From assembly GCA_002762795.1 (NCBI GenBank), contig PCYA01000012.1:1-45012 (forward strand): a DNA stretch of 45,012 nucleotides, given 5' to 3'. The position numbers were made by a program, and so were the translations under genes. Positions 4,525 to 33,650 of the stretch are shown in pieces (within the stretch, counting starts at the first letter, position 1; the number at the start of each line of letters is the position of its first letter). Origin of the DNA: Candidatus Woesearchaeota archaeon CG10_big_fil_rev_8_21_14_0_10_37_12. Lineage in GTDB: Archaea; Nanobdellota; Nanobdellia; Woesearchaeales; ARS49. The notes beneath the pieces were generated by a model. The model made no database searches. It had not been told where the DNA came from and saw only the letters and a program-made list of their open reading frames with translations.

Positions 4525-5478
4525 ATGTCAGACATAACAACCATATGGACAGAAAAATACAGACCAAAAACATTTGAAGATCTCACAGGCCAAACAGAAA
4601 TCATAAAAAAACTTAAAGCATTCATAGAAAAACAAAACATACCACACTTACTCTTTGCAGGACCAGCAGGCATAGGAAAAAGCACACTTGCTTTGATCAT
4701 CGCACGCACGTTTTTCGGAGAACATTACAGAGAAAACTTCTTAGAACTAAACGCAAGCGATGAAAGAGGAATAGACGTTGTACGAGTAAAAGTCAAAGAT
4801 TTTGCACGAACAAAAGCACTCGGAAACGTACCATTCAAAATCATCTTTCTTGATGAATGCGACGCGCTCACAAAAGAAGCACAACAAGCACTCAGAAGAA
4901 CAATGGAAAACTACACCAGCACGTGCAGGTTTGTACTTGCAGCAAACTACAGCAGCAAAATAATAGACCCAATACAAAGCAGATGCGCAGTCTTCAGATT
5001 CAAACCACTCAGCAACGAACACGTCGAACAACTAATTACAAAAATCGCAACACAAGAAAACTTGTCCATAGGACAAGAAGCAAAAAACGCACTAATAACC
5101 ATTGCAGAAGGAGATTGCAGACGAGTAGTCAATTTATTACAAAGCGGAGCAGCAGCAGGAGAAATAACACCTGACAATGTCTATTCCCTCGCAAGCTATG
5201 CAAAACCAACAGAAATCAAAGAAACACTCAACTTAGCACTAGCAGGAAAATTTGTGGAAAGCAGAGACAAACTCCTAAACATCATGCTAACATATGGACT
5301 GTCTGCAGTTGACATTATCAAACAAATACAGTCAACAATCTGGCAATTAGACATTTCAAACAGAAAAAAAGTACAACTCATAGACAAATGCGGAGAAACA
5401 GAATTCAGAATAGTAGAAGGAAGCGACGAATTTTTGCAATTAGAAGCTCTGTTAGCGCAGTTTATTCTGAATGAGTAA
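4525..5478 (+). CDS. rfcS: Replication factor C small subunit (clamp loader)
   Basis: AAA+ subunit of the clamp loader that opens PCNA and places it on primed DNA. Visible motifs are the N-terminal WTEKYRPKTFEDLTGQ box, Walker A GPAGIGKST near residue 52, Walker B IIFLDECD near 110 (the usual RFC variant of DEAD) and the SRC motif in QSRCAVFRF near 152. A C-terminal helical collar follows. The length of 317 residues is normal for archaeal RfcS. The large subunit gene is not in this window. The structured element at 5477 begins at its stop codon. Confidence 0.96.
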   Translation: MSDITTIWTEKYRPKTFEDLTGQTEIIKKLKAFIEKQNIPHLLFAGPAGIGKSTLALIIARTFFGEHYRENFLELNASDERGIDVVRVKVKDFARTKALGNVPFKIIFLDECDALTKEAQQALRRTMENYTSTCRFVLAANYSSKIIDPIQSRCAVFRFKPLSNEHVEQLITKIATQENLSIGQEAKNALITIAEGDCRRVVNLLQSGAAAGEITPDNVYSLASYAKPTEIKETLNLALAGKFVESRDKLLNIMLTYGLSAVDIIKQIQSTIWQLDISNRKKVQLIDKCGETEFRIVEGSDEFLQLEALLAQFILNE

Positions 5479-5796
5479 AGAGAGGACAGTAGCTCCTCTG
5501 GCTCTCTGTTTTTCGCAAGGTCCTCTCCTTAAACCTCACCTGCACTTCTGAAAGTAGAAAGCCAGATGATTACTTGTGCTTTAATATCGTTTGCGCTACC
5601 GCCCCAAACGCGATGGTTTGTTGTGTTACTTTTTCTCAACGGTTTTTAATGCCACCAAGCCTACTATTGTGACTCCGCTTTGCTACGTCCCAAAATATTA
5701 ATTTCGCTATCGCAAAATCAATACATCCTCAGCAAAAGCAAACATAAAATGACTGTTTGCGTTTTCTATTTTTAGATAAATGGGGTGCTTTAAAGA
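5477..5796 (+). ncRNA. Structured repeat element, copy A (candidate pseudoknotted RNA)
   Basis: About 320 bases that align with 33251-33513 and, for the first part, with 7874-7996. Stem a is GAGAGGA (5480-5486) with TCCTCTC (5521-5527). Stem b is CTGGCT (5498-5503) with AGCCAG (5560-5565). Their order a-b-a'-b' crosses, which makes a pseudoknot. Two further hairpins are kept in copy C: CGTTTG/CAAACG (5588-5610) and GCAAACA/TGTTTGC (5738-5760). A GGGGTG near the 3' end (5782-5787) could pair with the CCCC near 5602. This copy holds roughly 60 extra bases around 5660-5730. There is no convincing ORF. The transcribed strand and any function are unknown; a non-autonomous mobile element is the main alternative. 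Confidence 0.55.
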
Positions 5797-5870
5797 GGGA
5801 GTCTCGCAAAAATGGCCAAGCGCAAGTTCTTCCTATTTATTGAAAATCAGACGAAGAATTTCTACAAAAT
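5797..5870. other. Short gap after copy A, nothing recognised
   Basis: Between the end of the structured element and the stop of the lipoprotein gene. No gene or clear signal is seen. Confidence 0.4.
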
Positions 5871-7861: not shown

Positions 7862-7873
7862 CTTTGTGTTTTT

Positions 7874-7996
7874 AAAGAGAGGAGAGAAGCTTCTCTGGCT
7901 TGCAATCTGTCAATGCTGTCCTCTCCTTAAACTACACCTGCAATTCTAAAAAAGGAAAGCCAGATGATTAGCTTACGCTTTGATGTTGTTTGCTTG
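7874..7996 (+). ncRNA. Structured repeat element, copy B (5' half only)
   Basis: Keeps both crossing stems of copies A and C: GAGAGGA 7877-7883 with TCCTCTC 7919-7925, and CTGGCT 7895-7900 with AGCCAG 7958-7963. The spacers are 11, 18 and 32 bases, against 11, 17 and 32 in A and C. Similarity fades after GTTTGC at 7988, where the stop codon (7997-7999) of the minus-strand gene begins. The 3' hairpins of the full copies are absent. It lies antisense to the upstream region of the lipoprotein operon. Confidence 0.5.
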
Positions 7997-29435: not shown

Positions 29436-31271
29436 ATGATCAAAAAATGTTTTTTTCTTACACTATTCTTGTCTGTTACTGTAACTGCAACACCATTCGA
29501 TTTTGATTTTATTCAACAAGTAACAGGAAACGGATGGTTAACCAGTTGTTTCACAAACGGAAACAGAGGCGGACTCAACATAGACAATTCACCAATAGTA
29601 CTAAAATTAGACTTTCCATACACAATAGAAGCAAGATCAATAAACGCACACTGGGGAATGCACCACAGCCAATTCAACTCAGGCATAGGCATTTACAGAA
29701 ATGGACAACGAATAAACTACTCCATCGCAGCAGGAGGAACAAAAAATGAGCCAAAAATAACACCATGGGTTATAGAAACAGGAGACGAAGTAAAAAGATG
29801 CGCATTTGACTTTGTTGGAAGAGGAAAAAGCCAATTCAGAATACACTACGACGATTGGTGGGTATACACTATCCCCGGTTTTGTATACGATTTAGTGAGC
29901 AATATATGGGTGCATGATCGTTCATGGGGAGGACCAGAAAACACAGGAACCTACTGGATAAACCTAAGAGCAACACACACAGCAAACATAACATTTGGAG
30001 AAAAACAAAAAAATCTTGGAACTATCCAAGAACTCGCAAGACCATACCTGCTAGACGAACTATACAATCCTGGCTTTTACGCAGAATCTGACAAGCCTGA
30101 AATTTTATTTGAAATAACCACACAAGTTTTAGCGTGTCTTGATATGGATTTAAGCAATGCTTGCGACTATGAACAAGCAGATGCCTGCTCAGGTGCTGGT
30201 GGAGATTGGGCAAGCTATTATGACCCTCAATTACAAGCTACTGTAGGCACATGCTGTGGAATTACACCAACACACACACCAGATACTTGCCAATATTCAC
30301 AACAATTTAATACACTCTGCGGCAAAAATAATGAACAAAACTGGCAATTTGCCTCTCTAAGCATGCCTGGCATCATCAAAAATTACGCCTGCCCAGAAAA
30401 ATTTTCAACACTCAGTACAGGCACAGAACTCTATGCCTGCGGAAACAACCCATACGGACTTCAAAACATGCAAAAAATAACAGTACTAAATCATGAATTT
30501 ATTTGCGTTCCTGACCAAAAAGACATTTATGAATGTATTGGAAACAACACATTTCCATTAGTAACAAACAATCCCTTCAGAGAACAAGGAGAACACATTG
30601 TTGCAGGATCCACAACATACGAATGTCAGGAAAATGCAACCTGGACAACATACCATACGCCTTGTTTATTAGGTGAACAAAGAATAAATAATGAAACAGG
30701 ACTGATTGAGTTTTGTTCACCAACACAAGGATGGATAACTGACTTGGATGCAGATGAGGGAGCTTGTCGTGCAGCAGGAAGATTGTATAACACTATAAGA
30801 TGGACGGGAACACAATGCTGCGGGGATCCTTTAGACAACAACACACCACAAGCCATTTACGAAGAACAAAATGGACTCGGAGCTTGCTTGAACAACACAC
30901 CAATAATGAGCGGACAAACAATCACCAACAATACAATCATTAATCATCAAGGACAATTCTACCAATGCCAAGGAACCCCCCCATCAACAGAATTACAAAA
31001 CGCAGGCATCACACCCGCACATCAAGGAGTTTGCGGACAACCCTTACTCAACACAACAAGCAGCATACACAGTATTTGTTTGCCAAATGGTAAATGGTAC
31101 CAAACACCATATACAACAGTACACCAAGTAAAATCCATAAACTGGCAACCCTTAGCAACACAAATCAATCAAGGATGCTGCCCAGAAAACAAATGCTGGG
31201 ACGGAAACACCTGCAAAAACCCCGGAGAATACTACCAAATAGAAAACCAAGGATACCAATGCCAAAACTAA
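29436..31271 (+). CDS. Large secreted Cys-rich protein, tandem paralog 1
   Basis: A 611-residue secreted protein with a signal peptide (about residues 1-18, ending TVTATPFDF). The N-terminal 200 residues are beta-rich with Trp-rich motifs (INAHWGMH, WVIETGDEVKRCAFDF). The rest is Cys-rich with repeated CxxxxGxWxxY-type modules and about 30 Cys. The C-terminal 260 residues are nearly identical to those of the next gene, for example FCSPTQGWI, GACRAAGRLYNTIRWTGTQC and GCCPENKCWDGNTCKNPGEY. No transmembrane anchor is present at the C-terminus. No enzyme motif is recognised; an adhesin or extracellular matrix role is plausible. Its promoter is shared with the divergent small gene. Confidence 0.75.
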   Translation: MIKKCFFLTLFLSVTVTATPFDFDFIQQVTGNGWLTSCFTNGNRGGLNIDNSPIVLKLDFPYTIEARSINAHWGMHHSQFNSGIGIYRNGQRINYSIAAGGTKNEPKITPWVIETGDEVKRCAFDFVGRGKSQFRIHYDDWWVYTIPGFVYDLVSNIWVHDRSWGGPENTGTYWINLRATHTANITFGEKQKNLGTIQELARPYLLDELYNPGFYAESDKPEILFEITTQVLACLDMDLSNACDYEQADACSGAGGDWASYYDPQLQATVGTCCGITPTHTPDTCQYSQQFNTLCGKNNEQNWQFASLSMPGIIKNYACPEKFSTLSTGTELYACGNNPYGLQNMQKITVLNHEFICVPDQKDIYECIGNNTFPLVTNNPFREQGEHIVAGSTTYECQENATWTTYHTPCLLGEQRINNETGLIEFCSPTQGWITDLDADEGACRAAGRLYNTIRWTGTQCCGDPLDNNTPQAIYEEQNGLGACLNNTPIMSGQTITNNTIINHQGQFYQCQGTPPSTELQNAGITPAHQGVCGQPLLNTTSSIHSICLPNGKWYQTPYTTVHQVKSINWQPLATQINQGCCPENKCWDGNTCKNPGEYYQIENQGYQCQN

Positions 31272-31402: not shown

Positions 31403-33217
31403 ATGATCAACAAAAAAATATGGCTGTTTATCATCACCATTTTATCAGTTTCTACTCTTGCAACAGAATTTAATTGGGTACTCACACAAGAAGTCACAGG
31501 ACAAATAGGAGGAGGAAGATGTCATTATTCACCTTACCATGAACTTGTAGACTGGGGTCACAATAATAACTTGCCCTGGGCATCAGCATACCATCAACAA
31601 AGTTCATTCTCAGAATCAAACTCAAGACAACTACTCAAATTACCATACCCATACGAAATATCGGTAAAAGGCATGAATGTACATTGGGGACTGCATGATC
31701 TAGAAGAAGGTTATCAAGGAGGAGTATCCATATTTTCAAACAATAGATACGAAACAAGCGCAATCGCAACAGGATATACAAGAAACACATATGAAAACAC
31801 CATCTGGATAACAGCCACAGGAGACGAAATAAGAGGATGCTCATACGATTACCGAGGAGGAAGACAACCAGTACAACAAGGCAGATTCTGGGCACGCATG
31901 AATTCAAGCCCATATGCAAATACAATCATCTTTGGTGAACAAAACAAAAATATAGGACCCATTGCACGTTTTGCAAGACCTTATTTGCTTACAGACGAAG
32001 AACCTGTATTTTATGCAACACCAAATACAACAAACATACTCCTTGAAGTAACATCACAAAACATAATTGCGTGTACTGATTATGATGAAAGTGGCAAGTG
32101 CGATTATGAACAAGCAGAGGCTTGTGACAACACAGGAGGGGATTGGGCATGGTACTATGATTCTAACCTGAATAAAACAGTAAACACTTGCTGCGGCATA
32201 AGCATTGCTCCAGACACGTGCACTTATTATTCGCAAGACAACTTAATTTGCGGACAAAATGAACAACAACAATGGCAAACATTATCAAACCTACAAAAAG
32301 GAATAACAAAAAAATTACAATGCCCAACAAACATATCCGTGCTAAGCACAGGCCAACAAATACTAACCTGCGAAAAACCCAATGAACGCGCAACAACAAT
32401 CCCAAAAAATAATTTCACGCGAACAACCCTTTACGACAGAGAATTCATTTGCGTTCCTGAACAAGCTAACATATATGAATGCATCGGAAACAACACTTTT
32501 CCATTAGTAACAAGCAATCCATTCAGAGAACAAGGAGAACGCATCATTGTAGGACCAACCACGTATGAATGCCAACAAAACAGCACATGGATTGTTTACA
32601 GAACACCATGCTTAGCAGGAGAAAGAAGAACAAACGATGAAACAGGACTGATTGAGTTTTGTTCACCAACACAAGGTTGGATAATTGATTTGGACACTGA
32701 TGAGGGAGCTTGTCGTGCAGCAGGAAGATTATATAACACTATAAGATGGACAGGCACACAATGCTGTGGAGATCCTTTAGACAACAACACACCACAAGCC
32801 ATTTACGAAGAACAAAACGGACTCGGAGCTTGTTTGAACAACACACCAATAATGAGCGGACAAACAATCACCAACAACACAGTTATCAATCACCAAGGAC
32901 AATTCTACCAATGCCAAGGCACCCTTCCCTCACCAGAATTACAAAACGCAGGCATCACACCCGCACATCAAGGAGTTTGCGGACAACCCTTACTCAACAC
33001 AACAAGTAGCACACACAGTATTTGTTTACCAAATGGCAAATGGCATCAAACACCGCACACAGAAATACACCAAACAAAAACTGTAGCGTGGCAAACACTA
33101 CCCAACCAACTACAACAAGGCTGCTGCCCAGAAAACAAATGCTGGGACGGAAACACCTGCAAAAACCCCGGAGAATACTACCAAATAGAAAACCAAGGAT
33201 ACCAATGCCAAACATAA
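31403..33217 (+). CDS. Large secreted Cys-rich protein, tandem paralog 2
   Basis: A 604-residue paralog of the preceding gene with the same layout: signal peptide (about residues 1-19, ending STLATEF), a Trp-rich beta domain (MNVHWGLHD, WITATGDEIRGCSYDY) and a Cys-rich C-terminal half. The N-terminal halves have diverged clearly, but the C-terminal halves remain nearly identical in protein and DNA (about 30690-31271 against 32640-33217). This points to recent gene conversion or selection on that part. An AT-rich TATA candidate lies at about 31380-31391. A full copy of the structured element follows 33 bases after its stop. Confidence 0.75.
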   Translation: MINKKIWLFIITILSVSTLATEFNWVLTQEVTGQIGGGRCHYSPYHELVDWGHNNNLPWASAYHQQSSFSESNSRQLLKLPYPYEISVKGMNVHWGLHDLEEGYQGGVSIFSNNRYETSAIATGYTRNTYENTIWITATGDEIRGCSYDYRGGRQPVQQGRFWARMNSSPYANTIIFGEQNKNIGPIARFARPYLLTDEEPVFYATPNTTNILLEVTSQNIIACTDYDESGKCDYEQAEACDNTGGDWAWYYDSNLNKTVNTCCGISIAPDTCTYYSQDNLICGQNEQQQWQTLSNLQKGITKKLQCPTNISVLSTGQQILTCEKPNERATTIPKNNFTRTTLYDREFICVPEQANIYECIGNNTFPLVTSNPFREQGERIIVGPTTYECQQNSTWIVYRTPCLAGERRTNDETGLIEFCSPTQGWIIDLDTDEGACRAAGRLYNTIRWTGTQCCGDPLDNNTPQAIYEEQNGLGACLNNTPIMSGQTITNNTVINHQGQFYQCQGTLPSPELQNAGITPAHQGVCGQPLLNTTSSTHSICLPNGKWHQTPHTEIHQTKTVAWQTLPNQLQQGCCPENKCWDGNTCKNPGEYYQIENQGYQCQT

Positions 33218-33250
33218 CAATCTTGCACAACTTTTTCTCAACACATCAAT

Positions 33251-33513
33251 AAAGAGAGGAGAGTAACTCCACTGGCTTGCTGTTTTTCGCAAGATCCTCT
33301 CATTATAACCTTACCTGCGAATCTAAAAAAGAAAGCCAGACTTGATCAGTTCGCGCTCTGATAATGTTTGCGCTACCCCCAAACTCAATTGTTTATCGCG
33401 CTGTTCTTTCTCTACTACCTTCACTCCACCAAAGCCCCACCGGCCCCCACGAAAGCAAACACAAAAGGGTTGTTTGCGCTCTCTACTCCTCGGTTAACGG
33501 GGTGTTTTAAAGA
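33251..33513 (+). ncRNA. Structured repeat element, copy C (candidate pseudoknotted RNA)
   Basis: Second full copy of the element at 5477-5796, about 263 bases. Crossing stems: GAGAGGA 33254-33260 with TCCTCTC 33295-33301, and CTGGCT 33272-33277 with AGCCAG 33334-33339. Later hairpins GTTTG/CAAAC (33366-33384) and GCAAACA/TGTTTGC (33455-33477, nine-base loop as in copy A) are also kept. UACCCC near 33374 can pair with GGGGTG at 33499-33504. In copy A the matching bases differ but still pair. An ORF of 75 codons across it looks spurious. Confidence 0.55.
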
Positions 33514-33650
33514 TGAGCAAACAGAAACACAACAAGCGCGATGGGCGCTTCCTCCCCCTGTAAAGATAGCCCGAAGAAGAAAAACAGCAACTTAGTACTT
33601 ACAAAAAACACCCTTATTTTTAAATACCAGCACTCTTTAAACACACAATT
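33514..33650. other. Gap between copy C and the next gene
   Basis: Holds a TATA-like TTTTTAAATAC at about 33613-33623, some 32 bases before the ATG at 33651, and a short GC-rich palindrome near 33538. Nothing else is recognised. Confidence 0.35.

Follow-up and report, generated by a model that had tools for sequence, protein, structure and literature searches.

Copies of the element at the locus and in the genome

The window, the whole 45,012-nt stretch of DNA analyzed here, lies on contig C3 of a 1.35-Mb genome that is 99% complete and that, by its PheS protein, stands nearest to Woesearchaeota. It carries two complete copies (A and C) and one left unit (copy B) of a structured repeat element whose features are collected in Table 1. 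Copy C begins 33 nt past the stop codon of the preceding gene, and in copy A the element itself supplies the stop codon: a replication factor C small-subunit-like ORF (4525-5478) terminates on the TAA with which the element opens (window 5476-5478). The window also contains a 300-nt repeat, 82% identical between 30495-30794 and 32441-32740, which probably represents two paralogous genes for cysteine-containing proteins; these genes have no match in Pfam.

Table 1. Position of the element, its units and its pairing segments in the window
Feature	Position	Strand	Basis or remark
Copy A	5476..5839	+	
Left unit of copy A	5476-5565	+	
Nested hairpin segment of copy A	about 5690-5755		
Right unit of copy A	5758-5839	-	
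Copy B	7873..7963	+	left unit only
Copy C, complete	33250..33562	+	313 nt; borders from comparison of 10 complete copies and R2 matches
Left unit of copy C	33250..33339	+	R2 match; P1 and P2 near invariant in 20 aligned left units
P1, 5' arm, left unit	33250-33260		
P2, 5' arm, left unit	33272-33278		
P3 hairpin, left unit	about 33278-33293		
P1, 3' arm, left unit	33295-33305		
P2, 3' arm, left unit	33331-33339		
Middle segment of copy C	33340..33474	+	long copies only; holds GTTTG/CAAAC and most of GCAAACA/TGTTTGC
GTTTG/CAAAC hairpin	33366-33370/33380-33384		
GCAAACA/TGTTTGC hairpin	33455-33461/33471-33477		9-nt loop
Right unit of copy C	33475..33562	-	inverted, diverged left-unit copy; unit homology; R2 match, 34.5 bits, E 7.6e-6
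P2, 5' arm, right unit	33475-33483		read on + strand
P1, 5' arm, right unit	33508-33518		read on + strand; P1 decayed in this unit
P2, 3' arm, right unit	33534-33540		read on + strand
P1, 3' arm, right unit	33551-33562		read on + strand; P1 decayed in this unit

Searches with blastn and two covariance models (R1, built from left units only, and R2) found about 24 loci of the element in this genome, and the sequences of the copies were taken from stretches around each one. The loci are mostly intergenic, and truncated and solo units also occur. The 10 complete copies range from 181 to 397 nt; the short ones consist of a left unit, about 8 nt and an inverted right unit, amounting to 181-188 nt where nested inserts are absent, and an extra middle segment distinguishes the long copies, A and C among them.

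An earlier sequence-only reading had placed a second complete copy of a structured element at 33251-33513; such a copy is present, but it runs on to 33562. The same reading had remarked that A and C share more than the pseudoknot, and had offered an alignment no better than random outside the first 100 bases as a refutation. Their similarity beyond that point is far above random expectation (local score 45.2; the best of 300 dinucleotide shuffles reached 17.5), so this refutation fails. The two hairpins described there, GTTTG/CAAAC and GCAAACA/TGTTTGC, are also found as given. What did not hold is the proposal of consistent base changes in these later stems, which most other copies either lack or carry in broken form. 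The middle segment is present in copies A and C and at loci L005 and L046 and missing from the short complete copies, and the TGTTTGC arm is absent from both L005 and L046, so the later stems do not belong to the shared core. The strings of a further proposed pairing, GGGGTG with UACCCC (CGCCCC in copy A), exist, but the pairing is not common to most copies: the UACCCC/CGCCCC string sits in the middle segment of long copies, and four short complete copies without that segment (C3:52852, C8:37444, C14:39671, and C3:130910) nevertheless retain GGGG(A/T)G or a near match to it. The suggestion that two positions change there while pairing is kept is thus either a coincidence between two copies or, at best, unproven.

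Relation of the two ends

Although built from left units only, R1 also matches the right ends of three copies (L061, L062, and L064) on the opposite strand, as well as a solo right-type unit (L066), again on the opposite strand. When the left consensus is compared with the reverse-complemented right consensus, 32 of 58 unpaired columns agree, against a shuffled mean of 14.8 and with none of 5000 shuffles reaching as high. The right end of the element is a diverged inverted copy of its left unit of about 90 nt, a symmetry that the sequence-only reading had missed, and this unit is a terminal inverted repeat rather than one long RNA core. Left and right units are no more alike within a copy (identity 0.505) than between copies (0.512), which indicates that the bipartite element was amplified as a unit; since there is no same-copy excess of identity, the pair does not act as one long hairpin. 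Among left units, identity stands at 0.89 in the two helices P1 and P2, against 0.63 in the rest of the sequence.

Covariation in two crossing helices

In every unit two helices, P1 and P2, can form across each other, enclosing a variable hairpin, P3. Left-type units pair TAAAGAGAGGA...TCCTCTCCTTA in P1 and CTGGCTT...AAGCCAG in P2, while right-type units pair TACAGAGGGG/CCCCTCTnTA and TGCGCTT/AAGCGCA, so that the sequences differ while both helices persist. P1 and P2 barely vary among ten left units, which on their own therefore provide no test of covariation, and the set was widened to 28 units (20 left, including more diverged ones, and 8 right). Over this set, in an alignment laid by hand in blocks (a layout biased toward structure) and against a shuffle control that ignores the relatedness of units, covariation was 0.220 compared with 0.102 +/- 0.012 for shuffles and at most 0.085 when slid, and 37 cells were double-changed compared with 13.0 +/- 2.8. 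P2 alone gave 0.305 in an independent MAFFT alignment (shuffled 0.117 +/- 0.020), and P1 alone gave 0.167 in the hand-laid alignment (shuffled 0.090 +/- 0.014). Most of the compensatory changes fall on the single left/right split and thus represent few independent events, roughly four there, with a few more inside the groups. These results support a pseudoknot with covariation in both crossing helices, in agreement with the sequence-only reading, which had seen a structured, pseudoknotted element in several copies. An alternative hairpin, AGAGGA/TCCTCT, can form in most left units but was set aside, as it shows no covariation of its own in the ten left units.

P1 or P2 is broken in several diverged copies, indicating that the pairing is not needed for persistence of a copy. 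Within left units the arm sequences are conserved and mutations break pairs. This is the opposite of what would result from template-switch correction of imperfect palindromes during replication, a process established for quasi-palindromes that could keep the arms of P1 and P2 complementary in a structure whose folding has no function. Other repeats in this genome whose arms differ between copies yet remain complementary would fit such a process, but here both crossing helices would need correction, and we regard this explanation as highly improbable.

At position 4 of P1, 14 of 20 left units carry an A.C mismatch that becomes a G.T wobble when the opposite strand is read. Over all units, A.C departures outnumber G.U departures by 36 to 8 (11 to 6 when counted by column), and helix energies favor the other (G.T) strand in 14 of 20 left units and 4 of 8 right units. 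Taken with the inversion of the right units, this pattern is a weak hint that the two ends fold separately, each on its own strand, a behavior that fits two DNA ends better than one transcript.

Gene context and distribution

At many other loci the left end of the element stands 38-91 nt before a start codon, and it is near the 3' end of a gene at only about 7-8 of 24 loci; the position just behind a gene, correctly noted for A and C, is therefore not a rule. No gene context or orientation is common to the roughly 24 loci. In several copies a TATA-like box, read by eye, stands between the element and the neighboring gene, which argues against a leader RNA. A riboswitch was considered and rejected on these two grounds.

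R1 was run against 353 genomes of the order and matched this genome only, with none in the 352 others. R2, run on the same genomes, matched this genome, gave one plausible match in G034, a genome from another family of the order, and one in G092. The G034 match is a single copy, probably intergenic (E 7.8e-6 per genome, on a rough calibration), and reads GGGAGGG...CCCTCC and TTTGCGCTT...AAAGTGCAAA, keeping both helices, with two further double changes in P1 relative to left units; it is treated as a candidate relative. The G092 match was judged to be chance, as it lies in what appears by eye to be a membrane-protein coding sequence. Pattern scans of a genome collection of 85k species and of IMG/VR found none, nor did distant blastn searches of phages and plasmids. 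Rfam models had no match in the window at the gathering score, and a relaxed threshold added only chance lncRNA and snoRNA matches. HDV-like ribozymes have the strand order P1, P2, P3, P1', P2'. The unit shares this order, a likeness of topology only, and differs in having no Rfam match, in the inverted pairing of its units and in its long junctions.

These data bear on the possibility that the unit works as a small non-coding RNA or transcript tail that was spread by duplication, with the covariation reflecting RNA folding. Covarying helices that cross are a typical mark of functional RNA, a stop codon directly precedes some copies, and the possible single-copy relative in another family keeps both helices. 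The two units of one element are nevertheless oppositely oriented, so that only one would be read in the sense strand, and the varied gene context, the TATA-like boxes, the absence of an Rfam match and the nested fold energies, which are unremarkable in most units, all speak against an RNA family. We consider this explanation possible but somewhat unlikely.

A proposed mobile element with folded ends

The inverted-repeat ends and the dispersal of the copies point to a mobile element, and mobility is further favored by the mostly intergenic sites, the truncated and solo units, and the lack of conservation at the level of the family. We put at about even odds (a probability near 0.5) that this is a small, non-autonomous mobile DNA element, MITE- or REPIN-like and of a family found only in this genome, whose folded ends are recognized in trans. 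For recognition, strand and enzyme we infer the following scheme. Each end, when single-stranded, would fold into the pseudoknot, with P1 crossing P2. An enzyme supplied in trans would recognize each end as folded single-stranded DNA, much as REPIN or IS200/IS605-type ends are known by their hairpin shape, and the same enzyme would copy or move the pair of units. Left and right units would have diverged before amplification and been carried together since, and pairing would have been lost in copies no longer selected for movement.

Most known cases of mobile elements recognized by their structure involve bacterial Y1 transposases and integrons. A PF01797 search of this 99%-complete genome found no Y1 transposase (RAYT/IS200-type), although the same search was positive in 10 of 14 control genomes, and no parent insertion sequence was noticed among the retrieved copies. 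In a small DPANN genome where no Y1 transposase was found, a miniature element bearing covarying pseudoknots at its two ends would widen the reach of shape-based DNA recognition to a more complex fold. The element also shows that a covarying pseudoknot in a genome is not necessarily a riboswitch or ribozyme. A bolder proposal, which we consider unlikely, is that it forms a new class among the mobile elements of archaea, in which an enzyme outside the known Y1 transposases would recognize ends of pseudoknotted single-stranded DNA (or RNA).

The attC sites of integrons are recognized as folded single-stranded DNA, as is proposed for this element. An attC site, however, is a single imperfect hairpin in a cassette array, whereas here the helices cross, the copies are dispersed and the sequence is strongly conserved. 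attC sites occur in archaea (PMC9668308). REPINs are inverted doublets of REP sequences mobilized by RAYT Y1 transposases (PMC3116915). The element resembles them as an extragenic inverted doublet of a structured unit in many copies per genome, non-autonomous, with diverged solo units and compensatory changes. In contrast to the short hairpins with a 16-mer core of REPINs, its units are pseudoknots of about 90 nt, and its left and right ends, about 51% identical and with no same-copy excess, form no single long hairpin; its host is an archaeon in whose genome no Y1_Tnp was found. As two defining features of REPINs are thus lacking, with no Y1 transposase found and no left-right hairpin, we file the element as a variant of miniature mobile repeats rather than a member of the REPINs.

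MITEs are non-coding, typically shorter than 500 bp and bounded by terminal inverted repeats of 4-30 bp; they are known in Sulfolobus and haloarchaea, and the direct repeats flanking younger copies fade with age (PMC10969869). The element is likewise non-coding, under 500 bp, intergenic and multicopy with inverted terminal repeats, but these repeats are about 90 nt long and hold a conserved crossing-helix fold, no direct repeats are seen, and there is no noticed parent insertion sequence. The earlier reading had named clear target-site duplications as a mark of simple transposon insertion; the 10 complete copies have none beyond chance matches of 3-5 nt, and neither a transposition event nor an empty site was seen. 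Because direct repeats fade with age, their absence lowers the case for MITE status without removing it. An ordinary MITE of a DDE-type insertion sequence, in which the arms of P1 and P2 would be inverted transposase binding sites in double-stranded DNA and their complementarity a by-product, would account for the size, the inverted terminal repeats and the intergenic dispersal, all of them traits of MITEs (PMC10969869). Inverted protein sites would not, however, require the P2 arms to change together, as they do between CTGGCTT/AAGCCAG and TGCGCTT/AAGCGCA. The terminal repeats, about 90 nt long yet only about 51% identical, and the missing target duplications also count against such an element, which we hold to be quite unlikely.

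Nested and neighboring repeats

The sequence-only reading had proposed that the core can hold insertions. This is correct, the inserts being other repeat elements nested at preferred sites. Copy A, for which that reading had given roughly 60 extra bases, is longer by about 50 nt through an extra hairpin segment; this hairpin-rich segment (TATTGTGACTCCGCTTTGCTACGTCCCAAAATATT...) is also found at L005 and L046. A second repeat family consists of two hairpins joined by a AGCACGATC-like stretch of 8-9 nt. It is found in left units (L011, L015, L056, and L063), in right units (L004, L008, L050, L053, and L075) and at L047, and in most of its host copies it lies exactly after CCTCT of P1', with no target duplication. 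Its arms differ between copies while their complementarity is kept. A third insert, TCGCGAGnnTGCTCGCGTATTAG followed by a variable stem and CTATA, occurs just after P1' in L007, L013, and L053, and its stem arms likewise vary by copy and stay complementary. The outer tip of the element is flanked, at either end, by TCGTCGGATTATCAG or its complement in L011, L015, L067, L013, and L008; this sequence could reflect either an extension of the inverted repeat or a different repeat that served as target. At L005 1410-1460, beside a truncated copy, a hairpin CCCCGACCTTCAGGTCAGGG lies within AAAAACGCAC/GTGCGTTTTT and resembles the ends of insertion sequences.
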